DNA of 64,000 nucleotides from positions 3,448,001 to 3,512,000 of the forward strand of contig CAIIXF020000002.1 of the NCBI GenBank assembly GCA_903813345.2, in the 5' to 3' direction. Shown here piece after piece: positions 13,159 to 63,312 of the stretch. The stretch's first letter is position 1; every line of letters begins with the position of its first letter. This DNA is from Owenia fusiformis. Lineage: Eukaryota; Annelida; Polychaeta; Sabellida; Oweniidae. A program made the position numbers and the translations under genes. The notes beneath the pieces are model-generated. The model did no database searches. It was not told where the DNA came from and saw nothing but the letters and a program-made list of their open reading frames with translations.

Positions 13159-15305
13159 TCAGGTCCAAATATTTTCATTCATTTTTTCTAGAAGGACACT
13201 CCTTTGTGCATCATGTTTTTTACAATTAATAAAAAAATGTTTTTCATCTTCTACAGATTTACAAGTTAGGCAAAGTCTATCATTTATTGGAATAGGTTTA
13301 GGTTTAGAATAGCGGCCTGTTTCAATTCGAAGTTTGTGTGAGCTTAGTCTAAACCTGGCTATTGATTGTCTATATTTTCTATTATCAAGTTTTGTATAAG
13401 TATCCAAGGAAAAGTCATTCTTAAAGGTGTAATATGTGCGAAGTATAGGGAAGTTGTGATTAATATCAGTTTTCCATTTATCAACAAAGTTACTCCTCAA
13501 GGTTTTTTCAACATTGAATGGTACCATTTCTTTATTTTCTAAATTATCTTGATCCTCCCAGTGTTTCGTCATATTAGTTTTACATAAAATATCATAAACT
13601 TTTGTAGCCCAAGTTTGAAAACCGTATTCGTGCATTTCCTTTTCATAGGAATATGCTTTATGGAGTATATTTGTTGGGGGGAGTTGGAGGATTCTTATCC
13701 AGTATTTTATTAATGCAGTCTCAAATTTTACAGAAATTGGAAAACGGCCTAAGTCTCCATAAATTGCTGGACTGGCAGTTTGTCTTTTTACTCCGAGAAT
13801 TGATTTAATAAATCTCAAGTGCACCATTTCAAGATCATTTATATGTTTTTCTGTTTGCCATATCTCACACCCATATGTAAGAATGGGTGTTACTAGGGTG
13901 TCAAAAAGATGTAAAGCTACATTGACTGGTACATCACCAAATTTCTTATATTGGCTTTTTATTTTAAAAATTGCCTTTCTTGATTTACCAATTAGATGTT
14001 TAAAATTTTTGTCAGATTTATTATCGGTAGTTTGGATACACCCAAGATATTTATATTCAGAAACACATTCTATTTTTGGCCATTGAAGTGAAAGAAAGTA
14101 TCTATTTTCTTTGTATTATACAAGAGAACTTTTGTTTTTATTGTATTAACTATCATTCTATAACTTTTGCAGAAATTAAATAAAGCATCAAGTTGTCGAC
14201 CCTCGGCAGTGGTTGAGATTAGTTTCAAATCGTCTGCCCACAAAAAGTGATTGATCATCTCATCCTGAATCTGTACACCACGGTCATTTGGTAGAAATTC
14301 AGTCAGATCATCTAAGAAGTGATTAAATAAATAAGTACTGAGCACACTACCTTGCATAATTCCTACCACAGTATTAAATGTTGATGTTATACCAGCTCTA
14401 AATTTCAGACAAGCTTTTGATTTTGAATACATGCTTTTTATTATAGTAAATATTTTACTCGAGGGACGTATTCCTGATTTGCATAATTTAAAAAGTAAAA
14501 CATCACGATCAATACAGGGTGTCAAATAAGTCCCGTCCCCCCTGCTACAGCTAAAGCCTTAACAGACGGTACCTAGTGTAATATACCATTGGAAAGATCA
14601 TCCAAAGTTATGTTAACTCATCAACTCTCAAGTATTTTGGATGAAATTTACCTATATTTTTATGATGTCTTTTATAGTTTACGTGCCCTCCTTTAAGTAG
14701 CTTTTTTTGCGTCAAAATGACAAGGATATGACCTCAGAAATACGTCAAAAAGTTGATTTTTTTCGCATTCCACTTGTTACAAAATGGTTTTCAGCACTTT
14801 CCTTGCCCCTCTATTTTCTACAAATCTAACCCTATCCAGAAATTGGTTAAATTCATTGCCATAAACATATTTAGTCATCTTTTGGTCCCTTGACCTTTCT
14901 TATACCCGATTCTTAAAATCCTGCCAAATATGCCAAATTGCCATGTTTCTAGGCATATGGTCACCTCAATTGATACAATGTAAAAATTTGTGAGATTGAT
15001 TGACATGTGTCAGATATATGCCAATCAACGTAACTTTGGAAGACCTTTCCAATGATATATCACACTTGGTACCAAATATCTTGGTTTTGGCTGTAGAGGG
15101 GGGGACGGGACTTATTTGACACCCTGTATAGTCAAACGCTTTCTTGAAGTCAATTACACATGTATAAAGGATTTTCTTATGTCTTTTAAATTTGTTTTTT
15201 ATTGTTTGAAAAATAAAAAGATTGTCTGTGGTCCTGCTATTTTTCTTATAGGCACCTTGAAATGGATCTTGTAAGTTAATTGTTTCAGCATTAAAGACTA
15301 ATCTA
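13159..15305 (-). pseudogene. Non-LTR reverse transcriptase, broken
   Basis: Minus-strand reverse transcriptase with the usual motif order. The N-terminal part (15,305-15,127) has QGAYKKNSRTTDNL and motif A (VIDFKKAFDY). The next part (14,514-14,080) has GIMQGSVLSTYLF and a catalytic motif read as FLWADD. The thumb and C-terminal part (14,070-13,159) has TYGCEIWQ and a zinc-knuckle-like C-x2-C...H...C near the end. Three lesions are visible: 5' truncation, a MITE at 14,515-15,126 interrupting motif A, and a 1-nt loss in an A-run (plus-strand T-run 14,073-14,077) that ends the middle frame. Otherwise the frames are open, so the copy is fairly young. The LINE clade is not assigned. Confidence 0.88.
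14515..15126. mobile_element. 612-bp MITE nested in the LINE
   Basis: Ends CAGGGTGTCAAATAAGTCCC and its complement, with a GGGGGACGGGACTTATTTGA right end. TA flanks at 14,513-14,514 and 15,127-15,128. Removing the element with one TA joins the interrupted reverse-transcriptase codons in frame, which independently confirms insertion and target duplication. No transposase is encoded. Confidence 0.93.
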
Positions 15306-15474
15306 TGATGAAGGCACACCATTAAACACACAGGAGGAAATTATATATAATCCAAAACCAAGAATTCATTGTCTTTATGAAGCCTCGTAAAAGACTTCGT
15401 AAGATTGGCCTAGTTGGACAACCTAAAGTTGATTCTGATTTACAATTATATTATTTCAGAGTGTGTTGTTGAAA

Positions 15475-16677
15475 ATGTTGATGGTGTGTGCTCTACTAAA
15501 AGCTGTCTTCCCCTGGCAAAACAGCAACGTTGTGGACATGAGCAAGAACAACATCACTATAGTAAGAGATGGCGTGTTCATTAACCACACACATTTGGAA
15601 TATTTGGATCTGAGCTACAACAAAATATCTGAGATCTCATCCGAGGCATTTTCAGGTCTGAAATCATTAAATATACTCAACTTGGAAGAAAACAATCTTA
15701 AAATCTTAAAAACAGGAATTTTCAGTGACCTGATATCCCTTTGGGTCATTCATCTGCAGGGAAACGAAATATCAGAGATAGAAACTGGCGCATTTACAGG
15801 TTTGCTATCATTGCATACCCTTTCCCTTCAAAGAAACAAACTTTCAGTATTGAAAAATGGAATATTCAAGAACCTTGCATTCTTAAAAATTCTCAACCTT
15901 TACGACAATGGCATTTTAGAGATTGAACCTGAGGCTCTATTTGGTTTGCAGGCATTAGAAATACTTCAACTGCAAAAAAACAAACTCAAAATGTTGACAC
16001 ATATGATATTCAGTAACCTCAGATCCTTGAAAGAACTTATACTTGATAATAATGAAATTTCAGTTATAGAATCAGATGCATTTTCCGACTTGCAATCATT
16101 AAATATAATATTGTTATTTTCAAATAACCTCACAAAGGTGTCAGATGGCATATTCAGTAATTCATCCTCCCTCAAGAGGATCGATCTCACAGATAATAAC
16201 ATATTCATGATAGAACCAGGGTCATTTTCTAATTTGAAACAGTGTGATTTCCTAGATTTATTCCACAATAAACTCACAAAACTTTATGCTGCTATGTTCA
16301 ATGGCATGTCCTCGCTACAGGAGTTATCTTTAACTGTTAATGAGATAACAGATGTTGAATCTGGCGCATTTATGGGACTTGAAAATCTTGAATACCTCTT
16401 CCTAGATAAAAATAACTTGAGTAAAATACCAACTGATGTTTGCGAACATTTACCAAAATTAAATTATTTAACAATTAGAAGTAACATCATGATGGATGGC
16501 CCTTCTGAATACGAAAGTAGTAATGAAATTAGGGAACTATGTTTAACCATGGAACCTTCACATGTCGAAACTGGAACGTCATTTGACAACGCAACAGTTT
16601 CATCATCTCAAACGGTACAACCATTGATTTGTATATTATGTGGATATTCAGTTTTTATACTGTTAACTATTACTTGA
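15475..16677 (+). CDS. LRR1 (D1): extracellular leucine-rich-repeat protein, GPI-type tail
   Basis: A single exon encodes about 400 residues, almost all consecutive 24-residue leucine-rich repeats (LxxLxLxxNxIxxIxxxAFxxL); I count about 12. Several N-glycosylation sequons (NHT, NNLT, NSSS, NNLS, DNAT) suggest secretion. The C-terminus is Ser/Thr-rich followed by 18 hydrophobic residues (PLICILCGYSVFILLTIT) with nothing after, as in GPI-anchor signals or a tail-anchored end. I chose the first ATG at 15,475, but a TTTCAG acceptor at 15,454-15,459 lies in frame just upstream, so a 5' exon may supply a better signal peptide. No classic cysteine-rich LRRNT is seen; two cysteines near residues 340-370 could be a minimal C-cap. 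The D2 paralogue is at 38,913. The ligand is unknown. Confidence 0.85.
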   Translation: MLMVCALLKAVFPWQNSNVVDMSKNNITIVRDGVFINHTHLEYLDLSYNKISEISSEAFSGLKSLNILNLEENNLKILKTGIFSDLISLWVIHLQGNEISEIETGAFTGLLSLHTLSLQRNKLSVLKNGIFKNLAFLKILNLYDNGILEIEPEALFGLQALEILQLQKNKLKMLTHMIFSNLRSLKELILDNNEISVIESDAFSDLQSLNIILLFSNNLTKVSDGIFSNSSSLKRIDLTDNNIFMIEPGSFSNLKQCDFLDLFHNKLTKLYAAMFNGMSSLQELSLTVNEITDVESGAFMGLENLEYLFLDKNNLSKIPTDVCEHLPKLNYLTIRSNIMMDGPSEYESSNEIRELCLTMEPSHVETGTSFDNATVSSSQTVQPLICILCGYSVFILLTIT

Positions 16678-22773: not shown

Positions 22774-22813
22774 AGACGTTCGACATTGTCAACAGAATTA
22801 GTAAACTTCAAAT

Positions 22814-24508
22814 ATGGCCACAGGAAAATTTCGATACGCGCTGTTTATAATCGCTGTTCTGGAAGTGGTGAACGCAGATGATGGTAAAAGGCTTTGCACA
22901 ATCAGTGAAACGTATGTCTGCGAATGTGAACCCGCTGCAGGTAATGGAAATATGACATGGATCGTAAACTGTGCCGATCAGAAGATCGAAGGAGCGGTCA
23001 AACCGATTAATCCGTACCCGTTCGATGTGTCAATCTTGAAGCTGGACAATAACAATCTGAAAACAGTTCCAGCTAATACATTCGATGGTTTGCCGATGCT
23101 ATGGTCATTGAGACTCAATGAAAATCAAATTGAAACGATAGCGGATGATGCATTTGTCGGGCTTGAAGATCTTTTGCGCTACCTCAATATCGGGCACAAC
23201 AAACTTACGGAATTCCCTCGGGGGATTTCTAAACTGTACGGCCTGACGCATCTTCATCTTCGTGATAATCAGATAGCATTCATACCCGATGGTGCTCTGG
23301 ACAAACTAATTCACCTGGAAAAAGTTTATTTCAGCGATAATCTGCTCACATCATTGATTATCCCTAGCACTCTGACAGAGTTGAATTTTTTCGACGCAAC
23401 TGATAACCTGATTGAAGATGTTACCATTGACTCTGGTCTACAAAAACTAACCAACGTTCAATTGGCGCATAATAAACTAACCGTGAAAATCTTTTTCACC
23501 AGAACCTTCACAAATATTCTGAAAAATATGGAGACCTTGAATCTGAACTATAACAATTGGTATTGCGTGTGTAACTCGTTTCTAGATTGGCTAATGATGA
23601 GGGGATTTCATGAGGCGTGCTTGCTTCCGACTATTGTCCGGGGGCAGTCTGTTGCGCAGTATCACTCGGAAAACTGCCCTCCTTTACCGACCACTACAAG
23701 AGATCCTTATGATGACATCAAATTCGATACAACGCCCTACAATTGGCAACCGGACTCTTCAAGAACAAAACAACCTATCTATCGTACAACAAACGATCGT
23801 TTTAAACCCGAAACGAGCAAATCAAGTCGCACCACAGTCTGGAATTGGGAACATAAGCCAACAGAAAAAGATCAGCCGGATCATCGCACTACGACAGTCG
23901 ATCGATGGGAACCCATCCCAACAAAGACAGAACAAGCAGATCATAGCGAAGACCCGTCTTCTCACCCTAAACTCGAATTAGACGCCTACAATGATGACGA
24001 GAAACTGTTACTCACGTGGACAGTGGTGCCCGTGACACCACACACGAAACTGTTCGTCCTACAGATCCAAAACCACACAAATGTCGTAAAAACGGAAATT
24101 TTGGAACAATACTCCGTAGAATACGTTATATCTGACTTGGATTTAAACATGAATGGTGATTATGAAGTTTGCGTTCTGCTCATGGACCAGTCTCTGCCAC
24201 TTTTAGGGTGCAAGAAGGTCAAGGTCCCAGATCTACCGGATTACAGCGCCCTTCATAATGGCGAGTCGGGCTCTGTGAATAGTACTGTTGTTGTATTGGT
24301 AATTGTGGTGGCTGCTCTTATGCTACTCATGGTATTGGGCGCCGTGTTCATTTTGTGGAAGGGCCATCGGAGCAAGCACGACGCCGACCGCCAAAAGGTA
24401 CTTGGTGAGGACGCCATCTACCAGGCAGATGGTGCTGAGGCGGATACGGAGACCAATCCGATATATGAGACTAGTGAAGGCATGTATGGGTCTGCTGACC
24501 CCAAGTAA
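22814..24508 (+). CDS. LRR2 (D1): LRR-FN3 single-pass receptor
   Basis: Intronless 564-residue type I membrane protein. In order: signal peptide 1-21 (cleavage after NA); cysteine-rich LRRNT cap with Cys 28, 36, 38 and 53; about six leucine-rich repeats (66-230); LRRCT-like cap around NNWYCVCNSFLDWL with two later cysteines; a Thr/Pro/Trp linker (about 295-395) with three RTT...W-P-like repeats; an FN3-like domain (about 398-485); one membrane segment (about 493-516, VVVLVIVVAALMLLMVLGAV); and a cytoplasmic tail of about 48 residues. The tail has three tyrosines, AIYQAD, NPIYET and GMYGSA; NPIY fits the NPxY class recognised by PTB and endocytic adaptors. The architecture is like LRIT/LRFN-type adhesion or immune receptors, but I cannot assign orthology. 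D2 copy at 43,371. An AATAAA lies at 24,637. Confidence 0.9.
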   Translation: MATGKFRYALFIIAVLEVVNADDGKRLCTISETYVCECEPAAGNGNMTWIVNCADQKIEGAVKPINPYPFDVSILKLDNNNLKTVPANTFDGLPMLWSLRLNENQIETIADDAFVGLEDLLRYLNIGHNKLTEFPRGISKLYGLTHLHLRDNQIAFIPDGALDKLIHLEKVYFSDNLLTSLIIPSTLTELNFFDATDNLIEDVTIDSGLQKLTNVQLAHNKLTVKIFFTRTFTNILKNMETLNLNYNNWYCVCNSFLDWLMMRGFHEACLLPTIVRGQSVAQYHSENCPPLPTTTRDPYDDIKFDTTPYNWQPDSSRTKQPIYRTTNDRFKPETSKSSRTTVWNWEHKPTEKDQPDHRTTTVDRWEPIPTKTEQADHSEDPSSHPKLELDAYNDDEKLLLTWTVVPVTPHTKLFVLQIQNHTNVVKTEILEQYSVEYVISDLDLNMNGDYEVCVLLMDQSLPLLGCKKVKVPDLPDYSALHNGESGSVNSTVVVLVIVVAALMLLMVLGAVFILWKGHRSKHDADRQKVLGEDAIYQADGAEADTETNPIYETSEGMYGSADPK

Positions 24509-38141: not shown

Positions 38142-38912
38142 CAATGTCTCCATATTATGTGTCATATATCATTTTAAAGCTCATCCAAAGTTACATTAAT
38201 TTGCCAAGTATCATGGTTCAACTCACAAATGGGAAAAAGTTACAGGCATTTCAAAATTTGATATTCAAATACAGCATTCACCTAAGACACTTTGGCAAAA
38301 AGTTAATAAATATGTTTGATTAAATGTTGATTGTGAAAAAAGTATGGATTAAACGTTGTTAACCCCCACTTAGGTAGCAACACAATAGAATGAAAAGTAG
38401 TTTAACAGTACAGTTGTAACAAAAGAAGAGTACATTCTTTTTCTGTTGTTTTGAAAGAATGGACACTTAGCAAACCAGTGTGGCACAAACGACGATTGGC
38501 AGTTTTTGATTGTTTCCATCATTTAAAAACAATATACAAACGTATATGTATTCGTCTTTTGTTACTGTGCATTCTTTAAAGTGAAACAATTTATTGTTTT
38601 GTGGACTATTTACCTTTCATAAGAGTCGTTGTGAAGTTTAAGTAAGATAAACCATTCGTACTTGCTCTTAGGAGAAATAACCAAATTGCTAGTACTCATA
38701 GTTTATCCATTACTAAAGCTTTGTGAAATAAGTAAGAAATGAACTGATGAAGGCATACCATTAAACTCAGGAGGAAATTATACATAATCCAAAACCAAGA
38801 ATTCATTGTCTTTATGAAGCCTCGCACAAAGACGTCGTAAGATTGGCCTAGTTGGACAACCTAAAGTTGATTCTGATTTACAATTATATTATTTCAGAGT
38901 GTGTTGTTGAAA
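38142..38912. other. LRR1 upstream region, D2 (LINE-free)
   Basis: Matches D1 12,390-12,815 joined to 15,306-15,474, giving the pre-insertion sequence of the LINE site. About 170 bp near 38,395-38,580 are absent from D1. Any LRR1 5' exon or promoter should lie here, but I cannot pick one. Confidence 0.5.
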
Positions 38913-40115
38913 ATGTTGATGGCGTGTGCTCTACTAAAAGCTGTCTTCCCCTGGCAAAACAGCAACGTTGTGGACATGAGCAAGAACAACATCACTATAG
39001 TAAGAGATGGCGTGTTCATTAACCACACACATTTGGAATATTTGGATCTGAGCTACAACAAAATATCTGAGATCTCATCCGAGGCATTTTCAGGTCTGAA
39101 ATCATTAAATATACTCAACTTGGAAGAAAACAATCTTAAAATCTTAAAAACAGGAATTTTAAGTGACCTGATATCCCTTTGGGTCATTCATCTGCAGGGA
39201 AACGAAATATCAGAGATAGAAACTGGCGCATTTACAGGTTTGCTTTCATTGCATACCCTTTCCCTTCAAAGAAACAAACTTTCAGTATTGAAAAATGGAA
39301 TATTCAAGAACCTTGCATTCTTAAAAATTCTCAACCTTTACGACAATGGCATTTTAGAGATTGAACCTGAGGCTCTATTTGGTTTGCAAGCATTAGAAAT
39401 ACTTCAACTGCAGAAAAACAAACTCAAAACTTTGACAAATATGATATTCAGTAACCTCAAATCCTTGAAAGAACTTATTCTTGATAACAATGAAATTTCA
39501 GTTATAGAATCAGATGCATTTTCCGACTTGCAATCATTAAATATAATATTGTTATTTGCAAATAATCTCACAAAGGTTTCAGATGGCATATTCAGTAATT
39601 CATCTTCCCTCAAGAGGATCGATCTCACAGATAATAAAATATTCATGATAGAACCAGGGTCATTTTCTAATTTGAAACAGTGTGATTTCTTAGATTTATT
39701 CCACAATAAACTCACAAAACTTTATTCTGCTATGTTCAGTGGCATGTCCTCATTACAAGAGTTATCTTTAACTGTTAATGAGATAACAGATGTTGAATCT
39801 GGCGCATTTATGGGACTTGAAAATCTTGAATACCTCTTCCTAGATAAAAATAACTTGAGTAAAATACCAACTGATGTTTGCGAACATTTACCAAAATTAA
39901 ATTATTTAACAATTAGAAGTAACATCATGATGGATGGCCCTTCTGAATACGAAAGTAGGAATGAACTTAGGGCACTGTGTTTAACCATGGAACCTCCACA
40001 TGTCGAAACTGGAACGTCATTTGACAATGCTACAGTTTCATCATCTCAAACGAGACAACCATTGATTTGTATGTTATGTGGATATTCAGTTTTTATACTG
40101 TTAACTATTACTTGA
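38913..40115 (+). CDS. LRR1 (D2): extracellular leucine-rich-repeat protein, GPI-type tail
   Basis: Same length and layout as the D1 copy at 15,475, with about 15 amino-acid differences in about 400 residues. Changes include H to N and R to K in one repeat, N to K in a repeat turn, and SSQTVQ to SSQTRQ just before the hydrophobic tail, which is kept (PLICMLCGYSVFILLTIT). No stop or frameshift in either copy argues that both are under constraint. The in-frame acceptor upstream of the ATG is also conserved (exon start about 38,898). Unlike D1, no LINE separates it from upstream sequence and only about one minisatellite unit follows, so expression may differ between the copies. Confidence 0.85.
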   Translation: MLMACALLKAVFPWQNSNVVDMSKNNITIVRDGVFINHTHLEYLDLSYNKISEISSEAFSGLKSLNILNLEENNLKILKTGILSDLISLWVIHLQGNEISEIETGAFTGLLSLHTLSLQRNKLSVLKNGIFKNLAFLKILNLYDNGILEIEPEALFGLQALEILQLQKNKLKTLTNMIFSNLKSLKELILDNNEISVIESDAFSDLQSLNIILLFANNLTKVSDGIFSNSSSLKRIDLTDNKIFMIEPGSFSNLKQCDFLDLFHNKLTKLYSAMFSGMSSLQELSLTVNEITDVESGAFMGLENLEYLFLDKNNLSKIPTDVCEHLPKLNYLTIRSNIMMDGPSEYESRNELRALCLTMEPPHVETGTSFDNATVSSSQTRQPLICMLCGYSVFILLTIT

Positions 40116-42383: not shown

Positions 42384-43321
42384 TATGAGCTTCATACCTT
42401 GGAATTCCAAAATAATTTGTTCATTCGCTTTTAACAATATGCAATTATTATCGGTATCATAATGTCAAAAGTTAAAACAATAGGGTCATATTTTAATAAA
42501 AGTTTTCTTTAAATAATCTAAATTGTACTTTATAGTTAGTATAATGTTTATAAACAATAGTTCGATGGCAATTACGAAGCAATATAACTTTAGGTTCGCC
42601 TGTTTCAAGTGTCATCTTTACCCTTATGTACCAACCCCATTGAACACGTAGAAATATTTGAGTTTCTTAAAGGTTCTGTGTAATGTTTGACTTCATATTT
42701 TACACGGCATTTTTCATATGTATTCGTCATAGGTGAGAATAATATTTCCCATGGCCATATTTTTGATGAGATAATTGGAAGGGCTTCACAAATTACGGAA
42801 GTATATCAGCTAATATACAAACACTAACTTATCTAGGATTGAAAAGCAATAGTCTAGCTTCAATTACCTAATGAAGTTGTGTCAATGATCCATGTGTCGC
42901 AAATGGCGCCTTTGGGTATTCAACTTTTACTAAAGAGAAATATGAATAATAATGAATGCATCAGTTTACAAATGAACGATTTACAATGTAATGTGATAAA
43001 AATAATACATAAGTATCCAATAATGATTTAATTTCGGCAACTAATCTTGTTTGCGCACGACCTTTTCTGAAAATAAGACGAAGACAAGCGGGTGCAATAC
43101 TATAATAGAATATTACACGGGACCTTTAACAAGAAAGTCTTGACCAGAACAGAACAAAACTCAAGGCAATATCAATTTAATTGTCTATTGTTACAAGAAG
43201 TGGTTGTATCGTTGTACTACTAATAACTTATAAAAATCAGACTTTAATGGAGTTTAGTTTTGGTACAATCCTTGAAATAGATTAGCTTTGAAAAGACATG
43301 GAACAATAAATTGGAAATACG
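42384..43321. other. LRR2 upstream region, D2
   Basis: Lacks the 1,329-bp element of D1. Conserved with D1 from about 43,020 (TTTGCGCACGACCTTTTCTG). No exon found. Confidence 0.45.
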
Positions 43322-43329
43322 TATAAATA
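43322..43329 (+). promoter_or_regulatory. Candidate TATA box of LRR2 (D2)
   Basis: TATAAATA 42 bp before the ATG; same context as D1. Confidence 0.5.
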
Positions 43330-43370
43330 AGACGTTCGGCATTGTCAACGGAATAATCAAACTTCAAAAA

Positions 43371-45065
43371 ATGGCCACTGGGATATTTCGATTGGCGCTG
43401 ATAATAATCGCTGTTCTGCAAGTGGTGAACGCAGATGATGGTAAAAGACTTTGCACTATCAGTGAAACGTATATCTGCGAATGTGAACCCGCTGCAGGTA
43501 ATGGAAATATGACATGGATCGTAAACTGTGCCGATCAGAAGATCGAAGGAGCGGTCAAACCGATTAATCCGTACCCGTTCGATGTGTCAATCTTGAAGCT
43601 GGACAATAACAATCTGAAAACAGTTCCAGCTAATACATTCGATGGTTTGCCGATGCTATGGTCATTGAGACTCAATGAAAATCAAATTGAAACGATAGCG
43701 GATGATGCATTCGTCGGGCTTGAAGATCTTTTGCGCTACCTCAATATCGGGCACAACAAACTTACAGAATTCCCCCGGGCGATTTCTAAACTGTACGGCC
43801 TGACGCATCTTCATCTTCGTGATAATAAGATAACATTCATACCCGATGGTGCTCTGGACAAACTAATTCACCTAGAAAAAGTTTATTTCAGCGATAATCT
43901 GCTCACATCATTGATTATCCCTAGCACTCTGACAGAGTTAAATTTTTTCGACGCAACCGATAACTTGATTGAAGATGTTACCATTGACTCTGGTCTACAA
44001 AAACTAACCAACGTTCAAATGGCGCATAATAAACTAACCGTGAAAATCTTTTTCACCAGAACCTTCACAAATATTCTGAAAAATATGGAGACCTTGAATC
44101 TGAACTATAACAATTGGTACTGCGTGTGTAACTCGTTTCTAGATTGGCTTATGATGAGGGGATTTCACGAGGCGTGCTTGCTTCCGACTATTGTCCGGGG
44201 ACAGTCTGTTGCGCAGTATCACTCGGAAAACTGCCCTCCTTTACCGACCACTACAAGAGATCCCTATGATGACATCAAATTCGATACAACGCCCTATAAT
44301 TGGCAACCGGACTCTTCAAGAACAAAACAACCTATCTATCGTACAACAAACGATCATTTTAAACCCGAACCGAGCAAATCAAGTCGCACCACAGTCTGGA
44401 ATTGGGAACATAAGCCAACAGAAAAAGATCAGCCGAATCATCGCACTACGACAGTCGATCGTTGGGAACCCATCCCAACAAAGACGGAACAAGCAGATCA
44501 TAGCGAAAAGCCGTCTTCTCACCCTAAACTCGAATTAGATGCCTACAATGATGACGGGAAACTGTTACTCACGTGGACAGTGGTGCCCGTGACACCACAC
44601 ACGAAACTGTTCGTCCTACAGATCCAAAACCACACAAATGTCGTAAAAACAGAAATTTTAGAACAATACTCCGTAGAATACGTTATATCTGACTTGGATT
44701 TAAATATGAATGGTGATTATGAAGTTTGCGTTCTGCTCATGGACCAGTCTCTGCCACTTTTAGGGTGCAAGAAGGTCAAGGTCCCAGATCTACCGGATTA
44801 CAGCGCCCTTCATAATGGCGAGTCGGGCTCTGTGAATAGCACTGTTGTTGTATTGGTAATTGTGGTGGCTGCTCTTATGCTGCTCATGGTATTGGGCGCC
44901 GTGTTCATTATGTGGAAGGGCCATCGGAACAAGCTCGACGTTGACCGCCAAAAAGTACTTGGTGAGGACGCCGTCTACCAGGCAGATGGTGCTGAGGCGG
45001 ATACGGAGACCAATCCGATATATGAGACTAGTGACGGCATGTATGGGTCTGCTGACCCCAAGTAA
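43371..45065 (+). CDS. LRR2 (D2): LRR-FN3 single-pass receptor
   Basis: Same 564-residue architecture as 22,814-24,508, with about 20 substitutions: several in the signal peptide (including E17 to Q), the others scattered in LRRs, linker and tail. All caps, the membrane segment and the three tail tyrosines, including NPIY, are preserved. I start at ATG 43,371, which matches the D1 start; the frame is open further upstream without an ATG, but that sequence includes the conserved TATA-like box. Stretches of the ectodomain are identical between copies at the nucleotide level, which may reflect recent duplication or gene conversion. Confidence 0.9.
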   Translation: MATGIFRLALIIIAVLQVVNADDGKRLCTISETYICECEPAAGNGNMTWIVNCADQKIEGAVKPINPYPFDVSILKLDNNNLKTVPANTFDGLPMLWSLRLNENQIETIADDAFVGLEDLLRYLNIGHNKLTEFPRAISKLYGLTHLHLRDNKITFIPDGALDKLIHLEKVYFSDNLLTSLIIPSTLTELNFFDATDNLIEDVTIDSGLQKLTNVQMAHNKLTVKIFFTRTFTNILKNMETLNLNYNNWYCVCNSFLDWLMMRGFHEACLLPTIVRGQSVAQYHSENCPPLPTTTRDPYDDIKFDTTPYNWQPDSSRTKQPIYRTTNDHFKPEPSKSSRTTVWNWEHKPTEKDQPNHRTTTVDRWEPIPTKTEQADHSEKPSSHPKLELDAYNDDGKLLLTWTVVPVTPHTKLFVLQIQNHTNVVKTEILEQYSVEYVISDLDLNMNGDYEVCVLLMDQSLPLLGCKKVKVPDLPDYSALHNGESGSVNSTVVVLVIVVAALMLLMVLGAVFIMWKGHRNKLDVDRQKVLGEDAVYQADGAEADTETNPIYETSDGMYGSADPK

Positions 45066-55846: not shown

Positions 55847-55961
55847 ATGGCACCTTTAGTTGCAAGGTGTTGTTTGGCAGGGCTTAGAAGTATCCCTGTA
55901 GTGTTCATAGTAGCTGTCATTGTCTGGTCATACTATGCCTATGTATTGCAGATGTGCGCAT
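55847..55961 (+). CDS. ZDHHC15-like exon 1
   Basis: ATG at 55,847; encodes TM1 ([18 protein letters not shown]). The frame is open upstream but without an ATG, and this start matches family N-termini. Donor GTAAGT. Confidence 0.9.
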
Positions 55962-58900
55962 GTAAGTACAGAACATGTCAAATTGAAAATCAATCATAAG
56001 ACATCACGTAATTTAGCTTGCAAAGCTCAGAAATTCGAACAGGAAGTGATATTTTTGTGGTTTTGTTTACATTTTTAATTTTATTCGTCATTTCTTGTGA
56101 ACGGAATATCGCTGTACATGGTACCAGCAATGACCGTTAAACAAGTAGTGATTATTTCAGCAACATACATGAGAGTGATTTTGTTTGAAATGAATGTTGC
56201 AGTTTGGTGTTTGTGTTTACATAGTCTAGTCTAGTGAGTCACTCATTGACTTTTGTGACATTCGTTTACAATAAATGGGATGGTCGCCCAAAACTGTTCA
56301 TTTTCGCAGTACTATAGTTCAGTATCAGAATTTGGAACATAAGGTAGTACTTTTTGAAAAGAACAGGGCGCTACTCAAAACTGTTCCTATTTGTTGTGGC
56401 TGGCTCCTTTGGCCGCGCTCGAGCGGTAGAGCATCAGACTTTGGCGGGGAGGTTTCTGGGTTCAATTCCTGCACTGGGCTTACTATATTCGCACATAGCC
56501 ATCTTTAGATAGATGACTATGCAAACCTTGATATTCCCTGTCCATGTTAAAGGTCTTTTACAAAAATGTAAGAAATCTTGGGAACATTTTACCCTATTTC
56601 AATCGATGCATAACATTCTAAAGTATTATTTTTCCAACTATATTGGGCTATCTAGAGTCGGGAGCCAGTGTAATTGATGAAAAATGTATTTTGAACTTGT
56701 TATTTTCAATGTCGTCTGACCAGGAAGTCTTGCCAATGCGCATGCGTGTAACCGGAAGCGGAAATCTCATGGCATGGAAGCGAATGCGCATAACCAATCT
56801 TCCTGAGAAGCCATCTTGAAAATTATCAACTCTTCAACGTTTTTCGTCAATTACACTGGCTCCCGACTCCAGCTAGCCCAATATGGTTAGAAAAACAATA
56901 CATTAAAATGTTATGCATCGATTGAAGTAGGGTAAATGTTTCCAAGATTTCTTACATTTTTACAAAAGACCTTTATAAAGGACTGGGAATATCAAGATAT
57001 GCAAAGCTTTCTCTCAGGAGATAGCTTTGTGCAAACTAAGTAACACTGGGCATTGAATTAAGCATACTGCCTTTCATGTCTAGTAGCTGCCCAGGAGTCT
57101 AACTACTCATATACATGAAAATAACCGTTAATTTGAATTTTAGACTTACCAGGTGTTTGTAAATTAAGGATTGTGAGTCTCGTACTGCACTGTTTTTCTT
57201 CAAACAAAAATGCCTTTCTGTCGTTGCATTGTTTTAGTGTACAGAGTTTCTCGGTTTAGCGACGTTTGGGTCCCCAAACCATGGGCTTTCAATCTTTTGA
57301 GTGCCCATGGTATAACAGTACAATGTACCATCAGAAAGGCATTTTTGTTTTGCTTTTAATGGAATAAATTTAAAGAAAAACGATGTAGTTTGAGACTCAC
57401 AATCCTTAATTATCAAACACCTGGTAGGTCTAAAATTCAAATTAATGGTTGTTTTCATGTATAGTAATAGTTAGACCCTGTGCAGTTACTAGACATGAAG
57501 TTGGGACAATACAGACAAAGGGAAAAAGTCGGACAATGTCCCATTGGTGTACAGCTAGCTGAAGAGATGTAAAAAAACAACACATATTTCTGGACTAGGA
57601 TTAAACTGTTGATTAAATCTGTAAATTATATTTTTCCTGTGATAATTCACCTCTTTACCTCATATAAACCTCATTTAAATCAATTGATTGAATGTTCAAA
57701 TTTTAGCCTCAAATAGACAGAGGGATTAGATCTGATGCAAGATATAAATCTGCTATTCACCATAGTTAATCGTCTTCTTATGTTTTCAGGGACAGTAGAA
57801 AATACTGGTGAAAAAGGTAAGTTAATGTCACTGGAATATTCATCCAATATCTAAGTCTATTGAGTAAATGTATCATATTTTGGATTTTGCAGCCAAAATT
57901 ATCAATTTAAATTATCTTTCTAAATAGTATTAAATCAGTGGAATGCCCTTGCTGCCTTATGCACCTAAGAACAGTGTGCAATCTACTTACAGAGGTGAAA
58001 GAACAGTGTGTGAATGAACGTGTTCCACATAAGGAATTCTCCTTTGATGGGAAAAACAATTGTTTAAAAACTTTTATGTAATAAAGTCCAATTTAACCTT
58101 GATAATATGTTCCAAACTAATAATTGCTTAATATGTAATGAATTATACAGTATATATTTTTGATTTATGTATTTATCAATTAAATGTGTTCTCTGCACAA
58201 GTTTAAACATTTTGATATACATATGTAGGATACAGTATGCATTTCCTATGTTTCAGTGATTTACCTTGTACTCTACCATCCCCTGTTGTTTATGTTTGCC
58301 TGGGCCTACTGGAAAACAATATTTACCCCAGTCGGAACAGTCCCAAAAGAGGTAAGTTTATTAACAATTTTGTGTAACATTACCCAAAAATGAAATTTCT
58401 CAACTTTTATTTTATTTTAGTCTTTGTATTATTTCATGCATGGGAAATGATTTTCACTGACCCACTCAAACCCAAGGTGTGTACAATACTGTGTAAAAAT
58501 TGCATAATATTTATAAATTTCAGTTCTATCTTCCCCCTGCTGACTTAGAAAGGTTTGAACATGCAGATAATGAAGACATACAAAGGGATATATTAGTAAA
58601 AGTTGTACGAGAGCGGAACTTACCAGTTCAATGTAGGACAAACTCTGGAGGTAAAGAATTTTTGAAAATATTAGCAGAAGTTTCACTAGAATTTCTCACA
58701 ACAGGCTAAATAAATGAAAACAACAGGCAAAATTAAAGGAAATCATAAAGTAGGAGGGAAATTAACGCAACAGATTTCGGACAGTCATATGTTGGATTTT
58801 GGCTATTTTCTGAGGATTTAAACAGGTGCATATGTTAGGCCAATGCATTACCTCCAGGAAAAGCACTTCTAGAGATGATAAAATAATTTCGACTTTGAGA

Positions 58901-61900
58901 CAGGGTAGATGCAAACAAGCCACCCACATGTTTTTTTTGAAATGTTTTCCTGATTTTCAACCCCTTCCACTCTGGTTTTTGGTTTTTATAATTTTTCTTG
59001 CATAAATATATTGCGTTTTGACACACAGTTAACCCCTTTAAAGGAATAAGTGATTCCTTTTCGATAAAGTGGAAAACAAAATTTCCCATGTTATTTTCCC
59101 ATAGGGAAAACTCATGCGATCCATTGCTTTCAGCTAATTTTGGTCACCCATAATAGATATCTTTAAAACCCCTGAAGGAATCACTTATTCCTTAAAGTGG
59201 TTAACTGTGTGTCAAAACACAACATATTGATGCAACAAAAATTTAGAAAGCAGGGGTGGAAGGGGTTGAAAATCAGAACAACATTTCAGAAAAAACATGT
59301 GGATGGGTTGTTTGCACCTCCCCTGTCTCAGAGTCAAAATTATTTTATCATCTCTATGAGTGCTTTTCCTGGAGGTAATGCATTGATCTAACATACGCAC
59401 CTGTTTAAATCCTCAGAGAATAGCCAAAATCCAACTTATGACTATCCGAAATCTATTGCACTAATTTCCCTCCTCCTTTAACTTTGAAAAGTTCCTAAAA
59501 AAAACAGGCACTTTTGTGAAAACAACCGGTGAAAATTGCCTGTTGCCAACTGCTAATGAAACCCCTGATTAGTATATCAAAACTTGTTGTTCAAAAGCCA
59601 CCAAGACTGGCCAAAGGTGTTCAGATTGGTAGTTGTTCACAAAGTCTTCATTGAGAGTTGTTCATATTATTGGCTGGGCTCTCGCTAGGCTTTTAGAGTG
59701 TGGCACAGCACCACACTCTATTTAGCTCCCACCACAACCTATTGGCAAATCATGATTGATTCCACAGTCTAAACTTGAGCAAATACACAATTTCAGCATG
59801 TGAAAATGATAAAATAACATAAGATATGATTTATCACGATTGAACGGTTATGCTTAAGATGTTTCCACCACACCCTAAATTTTTCCTGGTGAGAGCGCTG
59901 ATTGGAGAGGTATTTGGTATACAAACCATAATATCAGGCCTCGTTGATCTCCACGCATAAAAGCAAGAAGGCACGGCTCCCAGTTCAGACTTCTAAATGA
60001 GGTTTACAGTCACCTGAAAACTTATTAAAAATGAGAAAAATTCATGACATAGTAAAAAATTTGGCACTCATTTATATTGAAAAAATAATTTTGACAAGAA
60101 CAGTTGCAAGTGTCGAACAATAAATTCAGACCCTTAGACATACTAAAATTTCTTTCAAAAACTTTTTCTTATGAAAATATACACAAAATAAATAATGATA
60201 AAAGATTTAGTCCAAAATTGTTGTTTCATTTGCAGCTATCCGATACTGTGAGAAATGCAAGTGTGTCAAACCAGATAGATGTCACCACTGCTCAGTGTGT
60301 GGAGCGTAAGTAGCAAAAAACATTTTAAGTCTGTCAAGTCACTTTGATGTTATTTAAGTCACCTTTTTTAAGAAATATCACATTAAACATTAATTTTAGT
60401 AGAATACCAATTGTTTACATGTAGTTAGCATTTGGTGTATGAATGTTCAAGTCAGTAAAGATTAAATTAAAAAATTATGGCGCCATATTTTTTTGATTTT
60501 TCTTTAATATGTTTTGCAGGTGTGTGTTAAAGATGGACCATCACTGTCCATGGTAAGATCTTTTATTTCATTTATTAAATTGAAAATAATACAGTGATAT
60601 TAATATTTAAGGTGGAAGACACCTTATACAGGCAGATTATCCATTCATGGTGGGTAAAAACCTTTATGATGCCCACGTGTTCTATAAGCATATTCATATT
60701 GTTCTTTTAGCGAAATCATTTTGACCTTAAAAGTCATAGTTAGTTAACCAAAAGTTGATTTCAATTTTGATTTCAAATTCACAACACCCAGAAATAGACT
60801 AAAAGGTTTTAATTATTTTTTTTACCAATATAATTGTATTGTATTTGTGTTTCAGGGTGAACAACTGTGTATGCTACACTACTTATAAATTCTTCGTCCT
60901 ATTCCTTGGATACGCTTTGTTATATTGCTTGTATATAGCAGCAACCTCAGCACAATACTTTGTCAAGTTCTGGACAGTAAGTTAAACTTTTCCTTTATTT
61001 GGTAGACCTTCCCTTATTTGGTAGATCTTCCCTTATTTGGCAGATCTTTCCTTATTTGGTAGATCTTCCCTTATTTGGCAGATCTTTCCTTATTTGGTAG
61101 ATCTTTCCTTATTTGGTAGATCTTTCCTTATTTGGTAGATCTTCCCTTATTTGGCAGATCTTCCCTTATTTGGTAGATCTTTCCTTATTTGGTAGATCTT
61201 CCCTTATTTGGTAGATCTTTCCTTATCTGGCAGATCTTCTTTGAGCCTCAGAATTGGAACATAAATGTCAATAGACATTTAAATGTTCAAGCTGAAGACA
61301 GATAAGGAATTTACACTTGTCATTTCTAAAGTCAGTAAAATATTCAGGTGAATGAAATATAAACTTAATTAAAGTATCCATTGTTTCTGATTCTCTTTCA
61401 TGAAATTTATGATTGTTATGTAATGATTCAAATGAAGATTTATCTCTAAATGATAGAAATATTGATAAAATAATTCAAACATTTATGATGAGTGATATAT
61501 TGAAAGGGTTTTGTATTGTATTGATGTATTATGTTCACAAATGGCATTTTTAAAATGCATAGAAGAAAAGCATTGGGCTCAGTGGAACCTGTAAAGTGGA
61601 TCAACCACAAGACCACAAGACCAACTGAACATCTCCCAAGTGGAACACTTTAAAATGTGTACCAAAGCTGTTCCACTTAAACATATTTCAATTCATTTTT
61701 TGTAGAAGGCAGGATTTTCCCATGTGACTGGCTTCGAATACAAATTTCGGGAATACACCAAAGAATCGTTCAATTGCGTACCAAATTATTAATCTTTTTA
61801 TGGCTTTATTGTTTTCAGAAACCTGAAAATTCAACTACCAAGATCATGGTTCAGTTTCTTTTTTTCGTCGCAGGAATGTTTGGACTAGCTTTAATAATAC

Positions 61901-63312
61901 TACTAGGATTTCATATATTTCTTGTTCACAAGAATAGGTCAACGATAGGTACATAAAGTATACAGAAAAACAACCAAGCAGAATTGTTTCATTTTTTGTT
62001 CCATTTCCTATTCAATATCAGAAAAATCAAAAGAGGTTGATCAATAGAAATAACAAATACTTGTCAGTTCTAGAATGTTCATGTATAGTTCTAGAACAGT
62101 TCATGAACAGTTCTTATGTTTTTCATGTGGGATTAGTGAACGTTTGAATGTAAATTAACTCATATGCACATGATCAAAAATTGTTATATAATATTCAAAA
62201 ATACATGAAAATGTATATGAAAAATGAAACAATTTGGACAGGTTATTTTAATATTGTTTGCACAGTTTTTTTTTCTTTTAGAGTTCTAACACCATGTAGA
62301 GGTGATTTTCCACATATGTTAACAATAGTCTCTGTAAAGAGAAAATAGTATGTCAGCATGAATCCATCTATACAAATCCTGGCTTCCATTAAACTTTCAA
62401 TCATCAGATTTAAAGAAAAGTATTAAGCACTGGTACTCACCAAGATGGAAGAACTTCCGGGCTTCGTTTTTGGTAAGATAACTTGTCAACAACTTGACTC
62501 ATAAGTGCCGTAGAATCGAAAAATAAAAATATCTTACTAAAAACGAAGCCCGGAATTTCTTCCATCTTGTTACGCTGACGTATCGTCAGTGTAACTTGGT
62601 GAGTACCAGTGATTAAGGTGTGCCTCACTTGCTTGTATTGCGTTATCAGATGATGTTTGGGTGAATCATTATCTTAGAAATTCAGCACTGCTTACCTTAA
62701 TCCTCTGACGCCCAGTAGAAACAAAGTTGAAATATTTTGTTTTGTCTTTATTTTGAGCCTGCTGTTGACATGGGGGATCTATTCCATAGTTTTGTAACAC
62801 TCAAGACTAATGAATATGTCAGTTGAGAATAGAGGCCTATCTGGAGTTTTTATGCAGAATTGCCAAGTTAAAATTGTGGCAAAGAGTACCCAATCCCCAG
62901 GTGTACAAGCTGCAAAGCCAGATCCACCTAGATATTATCTAAACTGACATATTGATCTGATACAGGGTGTCCCAAAAAGTAACAGCGCTGGTGTTGTCCT
63001 TTTGTAACCACTGATCATGTTAAAATTTTTACAGAATGTACTTTCATGTATTGCGACTTGAACATGATAAGTGCAGTATTAACTAAATGCCAGCACCATT
63101 CCTGATACTTTTTGAACACCCTTTGTTTGTTTTGTTTCTTTTTCTTTATTTCTAATGCTTTATTTTTTCTTAATTCTAGGGAGGTCTAGAACAAGGGGGA
63201 GGTCGTTTCCACATCCTCTTCCTGTTCTTTGTATCATTCATGTTCGGCCTTAGTTTAGTCTCCTTATTTGGGTATCATTTATATCTAACCTGCAACAATA
63301 GATCTACATTAG
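55847..63312 (+). CDS. ZDHHC15-like palmitoyltransferase, 5' part
   Basis: Exons: 55,847-55,961; 57,790-57,816; 58,257-58,351; 58,524-58,650; 60,236-60,305; 60,520-60,552; 60,856-60,976; then 61,819-61,948 or 63,180-63,312. All borders are GT-AG and phases are consistent. The protein has TM1 ending WSYYAYV, TM2 ([17 protein letters not shown]), the cysteine-rich domain ([20 protein letters not shown]), the catalytic DHHC ([12 protein letters not shown]), TM3 and TM4. DHHC enzymes transfer palmitate through the DHHC cysteine at Golgi or plasma membrane. RTNSGAIRYC and CHHCSVC are closest to the ZDHHC2/15/20 group, best to ZDHHC15. The C-terminal exons lie beyond 64,000. Confidence 0.93.
56395..57110. 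mobile_element. Inverted pair of tRNA-like SINEs
   Basis: At 56,395-56,500 a tRNA-like head has an A-box-like GAGCGGTAGAGC and a perfect B box GGTTCAATTCC. The following tail (TGATATTCCCTG, AAATGTAAGAAATCTTGG, GGGAGCCAGTGTAATTGA) returns inverted from about 56,845 to 57,030, with a decayed head complement to about 57,110. Two copies thus face each other across about 150 bp in intron 1 and can form a long hairpin. Confidence 0.65.
57110..57462. mobile_element. Foldback element in intron 1
   Basis: About 57,115-57,230 (TTTGAATTTTAGAC, ACCAGGTGTTTG, AAGGATTGTGAGTCTC) pairs with 57,335-57,462. The centre holds an inner CCATGGGCTTTCAA palindrome that resembles the ends of the 35,296 element. Confidence 0.75.
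57790..57816 (+). CDS. ZDHHC15-like exon 2 (27-nt microexon)
   Basis: Acceptor TGTTTTCAG, donor AAAAG/GTAAGT. Adds about nine residues (WTVENTGEK) between TM1 and TM2 and keeps frame between exons 1 and 3. Confidence 0.85.
58257..58351 (+). CDS. ZDHHC15-like exon 3
   Basis: Encodes TM2 and the start of the cytosolic loop ([12 protein letters not shown]). Confidence 0.9.
58524..58650 (+). CDS. ZDHHC15-like exon 4
   Basis: Encodes [20 protein letters not shown] through RTNSG, the linker before the cysteine-rich domain. Confidence 0.9.
58735..59490. mobile_element. Foldback element of about 0.75 kb in intron 4
   Basis: Arms of about 320 bp, 58,735-59,060 and 59,165-59,490, are inverted copies (GGAGGGAAATTA, GGATTTAAACAGGTGC, CAACCCCTTCCA and complements). 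The spacer is about 100 bp. The frames on both strands are arm products. Confidence 0.85.
60236..60305 (+). CDS. ZDHHC15-like exon 5
   Basis: Encodes the first half of the zinc-binding cysteine-rich domain: [20 protein letters not shown]. Confidence 0.92.
60520..60552 (+). CDS. ZDHHC15-like exon 6 (33-nt microexon with DHHC)
   Basis: Carries the catalytic motif [11 protein letters not shown]. Acceptor TTTTGCAG, donor TG/GTAAGA. It is too short to show as an open frame of its own. Confidence 0.92.
60856..60976 (+). CDS. ZDHHC15-like exon 7
   Basis: Encodes [13 protein letters not shown] and TM3, ending ...YFVKFWT at phase 0. Confidence 0.92.
60990..61240. repeat. 20-bp tandem repeat in intron 7
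   Basis: About a dozen units of TTATTTGG(T/C)AGATCTT(T/C)CC start 14 bp after the exon 7 donor. AGATCT in each unit is palindromic. Confidence 0.9.
61819..61948 (+). CDS. ZDHHC15-like exon 8a (alternative TM4)
   Basis: 130 nt, acceptor ATTGTTTTCAG, donor ATAG/GTACAT. Phase 0 in, phase 1 out. Encodes [19 protein letters not shown]...NRSTIG. Homologous in position and pattern to exon 8b. Confidence 0.8.
62428..62611. repeat. 184-bp hairpin between exons 8a and 8b
   Basis: CACTGGTACTCACCAAGATG at the left pairs with CTTGGTGAGTACCAGTG at the right, and CCGGGCTTCGTTTTTGGTAAG with its complement inside. The right arm holds an extra small palindrome (CTGACGTATCGTCAG). Confidence 0.85.
62964..63125. 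mobile_element. Short mariner-type MITE
   Basis: CAGGGTGTCCCAAAAAGTAAC at the left and GATACTTTTTGAACACCCTTTG at the right, with CAGCGCTGGTG/CCAGCACC inside. The right end is slightly decayed. Confidence 0.65.
63180..63312 (+). CDS. ZDHHC15-like exon 8b (alternative TM4)
   Basis: 133 nt, acceptor TTAATTCTAG, donor TTAG/GTAAGG. Phase 0 in, phase 1 out. Encodes [20 protein letters not shown]...NNRSTL, closest to the vertebrate TM4 pattern (FHVLFLFFV). Confidence 0.85.

Follow-up and report, generated by a model that had tools for sequence, protein, structure and literature searches.

Can one gene supply several versions of a protein S-acyltransferase by exchanging a single membrane helix, and what would such an exchange alter in the enzyme? 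The question arises from a window of 64,000 nucleotides of the Owenia fusiformis genome (G000:C2:3448001-3512000), in which a preliminary description had noted two consecutive exons, A and B, that both encode the fourth transmembrane segment (TM4) of a DHHC palmitoyltransferase and had expected them to be used exclusively. The mutually exclusive use of exons is a well-established form of splicing. Little is understood of how DHHC enzymes select the proteins that they modify and the fatty acids that they attach. Here we argue, with a probability that we put at about 0.82, that the full explanation of the locus is one DHHC2/15/20-type gene with three tandem-duplicated, mutually exclusive exons, A, B and C. 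Three natural TM4 variants on a fixed enzyme body would amount to a clean swap experiment made by evolution, in which any difference between the isoforms would be traceable to a single helix with the two edges of it.

Identity of the enzyme

Judged from its sequence, the gene is an animal DHHC2/15/20-type S-acyltransferase. The exons spliced in silico through TM4 matched Pfam family PF01529 with 122.6 bits when B was included and 122.1 bits when A was included, the cut-off being 28.7. Among entries of the Protein Data Bank, those of human DHHC20 and 6BMS, which we take to be zebrafish DHHC15, scored 175-179 bits, and ZDHHC9, ERF2 and ZDHHC5 scored 71 bits at most; the subfamily assignment thus means the closest of the solved DHHC enzymes (DHHC20/DHHC15), in a tree-free comparison with DHHC2 outside it. 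The alignment to human DHHC20 (6BML) runs through TM4 and the C-terminal domain with any of the three exons, reaching 177.3 bits with B, 171.1 with C and 164.6 with A, so that of the three exons B comes nearest to the vertebrate enzymes and A scores lowest. The human DHHC20 structures (PDB 6BML, 6BMM, 6BMN and 7KHM) and 6BMS represent the same type of enzyme, with a continuous match from the DHHC domain over TM4 to the C-terminal domain, but these solved proteins have one TM4 each, whereas the Owenia gene has three TM4 exons. The TTxE motif which follows TM4 would read STIE or STLE in all isoforms; the second threonine and the glutamate are kept and the first threonine is replaced by serine, and 6BMS likewise has STLE at this site. 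The glutamate is supplied by the constitutive exon at 67224 (window frame). A structure of zebrafish DHHC15 is named in PMC8059564 (papers are cited here by accession).

In searches of the whole assembly, both the N-terminal exons and the exons following TM4 gave matches at this locus only, and the gene is apparently the sole one of the DHHC2/15/20 type in the assembly. Elsewhere in the genome the Pfam model found many more places with a DHHC domain (40 matches, including several that are pieces of a single gene). Fourteen of these 40 have a near-complete domain within a single open frame of 196-401 amino acids and are hence intron-free there. Such frames lie on G000:C1, C4, C7, C8 and C9, five of them within about 14 kb on C4 (e.g. 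C4:17652099-17666189), which suggests that intronless DHHC genes have expanded in this genome.

Gene layout and number of TM4 copies

The exons that we could place are collected in Table 1. The coordinates, lengths and borders given for A and B in the preliminary description agreed with our own reading, as did their entry in phase 0, their exit in phase 1, the NRST(I/L) ends and the position and phase at which the upstream TM3 exon stops. Both also encode the same TM4, since each aligns over this segment to human DHHC20. The part that did not hold is their number: A and B are real, but the cluster has three members. The third copy had been missed because the window ends before exon C, which lies about 1.0 kb further on and was first seen as a TM4 match at 3513051 in a search of the genome. 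All three exons are flanked by an AG acceptor and a GT donor, and the introns which separate the copies measure 1,231 nt (A-B) and 1,723 nt (B-C).

Table 1. Features of the Owenia acyltransferase gene; positions are in the window frame, in which numbers above 64000 lie beyond the end of the window.
Feature	Position	Strand	Basis
First constitutive exon, with the start codon and TM1 (MAPLVARCC...), exit phase 1	55847..55961	+	tblastn with human TM1 stretch; borders from sequence
Tentative 27-nt exon, TM1-TM2 loop	57790..57816	+	sole candidate left by the filters for phase, open frame and pyrimidines
Constitutive exon, TM2	58257..58351	+	tblastn and borders
Constitutive exon, cytosolic linker	58524..58650	+	open frame with AG/GT borders
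Constitutive exon, DHHC cysteine-rich domain, first part	60236..60305	+	sequence
Constitutive 33-nt exon, DHHC catalytic motif	60520..60552	+	sequence
Constitutive exon, TM3; phase 0 exit; common splice donor of the cluster	60856..60976	+	sequence, in-silico splicing
Predicted alternative TM4 exon A, 130 nt, entry phase 0, exit phase 1, donor GTACAT (weak)	61819..61948	+	sequence, splicing, constraint, donor score
Long hairpin between exons A and B, limits judged by eye	62429..62620	+	dispersed repeat; judged outside the mechanism
Predicted alternative TM4 exon B, 133 nt, entry phase 0, exit phase 1, donor GTAAGG (strong)	63180..63312	+	sequence, splicing, constraint, donor score
Predicted alternative TM4 exon C, 133 nt, entry phase 0, exit phase 1, donor GTACAG (weak)	65036-65168 (G000:C2:3513036-3513168), past window end		
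Next constitutive exon, entry phase 1	67224-67350 (G000:C2:3515224-3515350), past window end		

The three copies are clearly homologous. Their pairs share 16, 19 and 30 of 44 aligned amino-acid positions, and tblastn of copy against copy gave E values from 2.6e-8 to 1.1e-17. A profile built from exons A, B and C together with two vertebrate TM4s was run over 352 open stretches between 60977 and 67223, introns and exons included; it returned three hits of 83-92 bits, followed by noise at E of at least 0.5, and no fourth copy was found there. The duplication seems confined to TM4, as none of seven other exon pieces was duplicated within 38 kb, a test that included neither the tentative exon of the loop nor the 33-nt exon with the DHHC motif. 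At two other DHHC loci (10 kb on C10 and 8 kb on C3) no TM4 exon resembling A, B or C rose above noise (best E 0.08). The order of the duplications could not be read from the copies: in a likelihood comparison of six topologies, two of which reduce to one unrooted tree, the 44 columns did not usefully separate any from the others.

One further hit resembling exon A was met on C12. It reached E 0.13 in the genome (46% identity over 35 residues) and, within its own 2 kb, a tblastn E of 4e-8 and 15.6 bits with the TM4 profile. FLFFV and NRST are both missing from it, and we judged it to be a chance match, picked as the best one that 498 Mb offer outside the cluster.

Other features of the window were noted in passing. 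Two pairs of near-alike open frames (15439-16677 with 38877-40115, and 22805-24508 with 43281-45065) read by eye as leucine-rich-repeat proteins; they keep the same order and strand at a distance of 20-23 kb, and look like a tandem segmental duplication. On the minus strand, open frames at 13159-15340 read by eye as the reverse transcriptase of a non-LTR retrotransposon. A tandem repeat of about 19 nt, of the cttatttggtagatcttcc type, occupies 60990-61240, directly after the TM3 donor (by eye).

Reading frame and probable exclusive use

Is the gene able to make an enzyme with any number of these exons? We spliced all eight subsets of A, B and C in silico. Each exon alone gave a frame that stayed open through the next constitutive exon (3/3), and the five other subsets, with none, two or three copies, all reached a premature stop. 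The lengths of 130, 133 and 133 nt each leave a remainder of 1, as the downstream exon requires. The preliminary description had reasoned that the use of both A and B would break the frame, and the A+B tandem indeed runs into a stop inside B. By their sequence the exons fit the mutually exclusive, tandem-duplicated kind, being homologous neighbours of equal phases whose frame is kept by single inclusion only. The exclusive use of A, B and C is well supported by the frame arithmetic and by the amino-acid constraint in every pair described below, as had been expected for two exons; it is the set of alternatives that has to be widened to three. Probably the gene gives rise to three enzyme forms. 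Transcripts that lack all of the copies, or carry more than one, would be subject to nonsense-mediated decay or would yield a protein cut short before the C-terminal domain.

How one exon might be chosen is less easily read from the DNA. Steric blocking is an unlikely cause of exclusion, given the 1,231 and 1,723 nt between the copies. When the four introns were compared in pairs by blastn, only short matches of 10-16 nt appeared, the best with E 0.005 over 14 nt, and no selector or docking element common to the introns was found by this blastn comparison. The hairpin between A and B was considered as a docking element and ruled out as a dispersed repeat: 141 nt of it (62429-62569) had 106 matches in the genome, on many contigs, although many places were counted on both strands since the sequence is palindromic. 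The hairpin as a whole resembles a palindromic mobile element. Retrocopies that could reveal the splicing of the gene were absent from the 36 matches of a genome search.

Constraint between the copies

Have all three exons been kept for the protein they encode? At the DNA level A and B are 51% identical, A and C 53%, and B and C 58%. The differences between B and C fall on the first, second and third codon positions 12, 8 and 35 times, so that 35 of 55 are at the third. Against neutral simulations that carried as many changes as observed, B and C differ at 14 of 44 amino acids where a mean of 30.7 was expected, and A and B at 24 of 43 where the mean was 33.4; in neither case was any of 5000 simulations as low. 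A and C are the weakest pair, with 27 differences in 43 against a mean of 32.7 (0.9% of 5000 simulations as low). For this pair pS is 0.62 and pN 0.43 over the whole exon, and the contrast is clearer in the TM core (0.72 and 0.34). Between 81 and 85% of the simulations gained a stop codon (81% for A/B). Because the test works on pairs, it does not single out selection on the lineage of A by itself; what the sequences show is that all three exons are intact and under amino-acid constraint in every pairwise comparison.

Donor strength

The three copies differ in their splice donors, which were scored with assumed base frequencies. The donor of B scored 5.8, within the range of the four constitutive donors (2.9-7.6) and above all 320 intronic background GTs. 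Those of A (-0.1) and C (-1.4) have the weak form TAG|GTACA in common and lie below all four constitutive donors scored; the former is equalled or beaten by 28 of the 320 background GTs and the latter by 45. The difference between the strong donor of B and the weak donors of A and C suggests B as the default exon and regulation of A and C. We hypothesize that B would be included by virtue of its donor and that A and C, with their GTACA donors, would need activators.

Could it be that only one or two of the exons are in fact used, most likely B, with A or C being a minor or dying copy? The strong donor is found in B alone and A scores lowest against 6BML, yet all three exons are intact where 81-85% of the neutral simulations gained a stop, and the amino-acid differences are below neutral in every pair, which makes this improbable to our mind. 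We think it less probable still that the cluster is a frame-based off switch, in which none or double inclusion is coupled to decay rather than different enzymes being made. The premature stop in all five of the non-single combinations would be explained in this way, but the constraint between the copies would not, because any poison exon would suffice. Lastly, an artefact of assembly or duplication is hardly credible: other duplicated stretches are present in the window, but an artefact would yield near-identical copies, whereas the exons are only 51-58% identical and the comparison of the inter-copy introns gave short matches only. The reading that we prefer is still that of three functional exons used one at a time.

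Residues exchanged in TM4

More questions concern the consequence of the exchange. Each exon encodes the lumenal loop between TM3 and TM4, TM4 in full and the beginning of the TTxE motif. Residues are numbered below as in human DHHC20, by an alignment anchored on Cys156. The tip of the acyl cavity in human DHHC20 includes Ser29, Tyr181, Val185 and Leu213 (PMC9006032), and a simulation study placed Ser29, Val185 and Ser217 in its ceiling (PMC9105814). The earlier statement that TM4 borders this cavity is thus correct for the human enzyme, where Leu213 and Ser217 are at the tip and ceiling. Only 217 of these two published TM4 cavity residues differs among the exons: in the alignment, positions 217 and 218 are alanine and glycine in A, and serine and phenylalanine in both B and C. 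Leu213 is identical across A, B and C, as are F220, L224, L227 and H231. The constitutive partners in the ceiling are Ser29, in the sequence WSYY, and, by alignment, Ile185.

We placed the residues on a helical wheel, an ideal helix anchored on Leu213 and Ser217 and drawn without coordinates. For the positions invariant in all three exons a period of 100 degrees was the best in all five TM ranges tried. The invariant face points to 339-347 degrees (L213 = 0, S217 = 40), with permutation p values of 0.005-0.07 over the five ranges. In pairs the signal is uneven: B and C give p 0.03 with a best period of 110 degrees, and A and B fail (p 0.21, best period 145 degrees). On this model F220, L224, L227 and H231 would face the cavity, and the exon swap would mostly spare the cavity side and alter other faces of the helix. 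Human DHHC20 compared with 6BMS has a comparable face pattern (p 0.06), and a conserved cavity side may be a general trait of the TM4 helix rather than of the swap.

Most of the residues that change are found on other faces of TM4, in the loop on the lumenal side and at the edge towards the cytosol. A lipid-facing hydrophilic ridge on TM4 has been proposed as a dock for substrates (PMC9105814). Ser223, Ser226 and Tyr230 of B correspond to alanine, isoleucine and phenylalanine in A, where the polar character is lost, and C moves the polar positions (Thr225, Ala226, Ser229). At residue 211, A has glutamine and B and C have leucine. The TM3-TM4 loop is lumenal in DHHC20 (PMC8059564), and in this loop exon A has an Asn-Ser-Thr sequon, a putative glycosylation site close to the membrane.

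Is the cluster instead a selector of acyl chains, in which the choice of exon resizes the top of the cavity and the isoforms prefer different acyl-CoAs? Ser217 belongs to the ceiling of human DHHC20 together with Ser29 and Val185; here its constitutive partners would be Ser29 and Ile185, and A carries Ala217 and Gly218 in place of the Ser217 and Phe218 of B and C. However, S217A alone did not shift the acyl length in the published simulations of human DHHC20 (PMC9105814), Leu213 and most positions on the same side are identical in A, B and C, and the coexistence of B and C would be left unexplained, as they are the same at 213, 217 and 218. Residue 217 is serine in human DHHC20, as in B and C, and alanine in 6BMS, as in A; given this alanine in the presumed zebrafish DHHC15, the difference may be tolerated rather than functional. 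A selector of acyl chains seems doubtful to us as the main function, though less so than the alternatives weighed above. The preliminary description had allowed for isoforms that differ in acyl chain or in substrate preference. The change at residue 217 speaks for its first half, and the constancy of most cavity-side positions, together with the lack of a shift in S217A alone, speaks against it. Switching of acyl length is therefore a possible, but not the best-supported, consequence.

The cavity side being mostly fixed and most of the changes lying elsewhere, we favour for our three-exon reading an altered recognition of protein substrates or of the membrane, which on the helix model appears at least as likely as an effect on the acyl cavity. 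Perhaps the choice of exon mainly alters this recognition, a step that we hold with less confidence than the exclusive use itself, and a secondary effect on the acyl chain might come about through the ceiling residue 217 and its neighbour 218.

Comparison with known systems

Has such a cluster been described before? A mutually exclusive exon cluster in a DHHC gene was not found in the open-access literature, which was searched mostly as titles and abstracts, and isoforms of this sort may already stand in genome databases. The words ZDHHC and palmitoyl are absent from the main text of a survey of human exons (PMC5740500) and from that of a survey of human, fly and worm (PMC9741552), supplements aside. 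ZDHHC16 is named as a prognostic gene linked to splicing in PMC8017877, the accessible part of which does not state the kind of splicing, and PMC8116494, in the portion at hand, deals with carnitine palmitoyltransferase only. As far as these searches show, the TM4 cluster would be the first of mutually exclusive exons described in a DHHC gene.

Splicing of DHHC genes is known in other forms. Alternative splicing of dhhc-4 in C. elegans gives different C-terminal tails (PMC13247117), mouse Zdhhc20 has an Srrm4-dependent neural exon (PMC11283458), and sheep ZDHHC21 shows exon skipping and intron retention (PMC11670804); in the extracts of these three papers no swap of homologous exons is described. 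The nearest likenesses are found outside the family. Homologous exons that can be interchanged occur in clusters in a membrane protein in mrp/ABCC, with eight in fly mrp (PMC7434440, PMC9741552), but this is an ABC transporter and not an acyltransferase. The coq-2 gene of helminths, annelids and molluscs has the mutually exclusive exons 6a and 6e (PMC7434440). Like the TM4 exons, these are internal exons that remodel the core of an enzyme in a lipid pathway, and in coq-2 they change the product. Unlike the Owenia gene, coq-2 encodes a polyprenyltransferase, has two exons and is backed by RNA and genetic evidence, whereas the Owenia cluster is known from its DNA.

With regard to the vertebrates, the two states of residue 217 that splicing would offer here are the states which they keep in separate genes. 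One may speculate that the three TM4 exons give S-acyltransferases with differing docking faces and cavity ceilings, splicing here doing the work for which vertebrates have separate DHHC2, DHHC15 and DHHC20 genes, and that the exon set is perhaps old and common to related phyla, an idea that we regard as rather unlikely in this full form. Set beside coq-2 and mrp, the TM4 cluster is, by its sequence, a fresh case of a known kind of splicing, with three members locked to one another by the reading frame.
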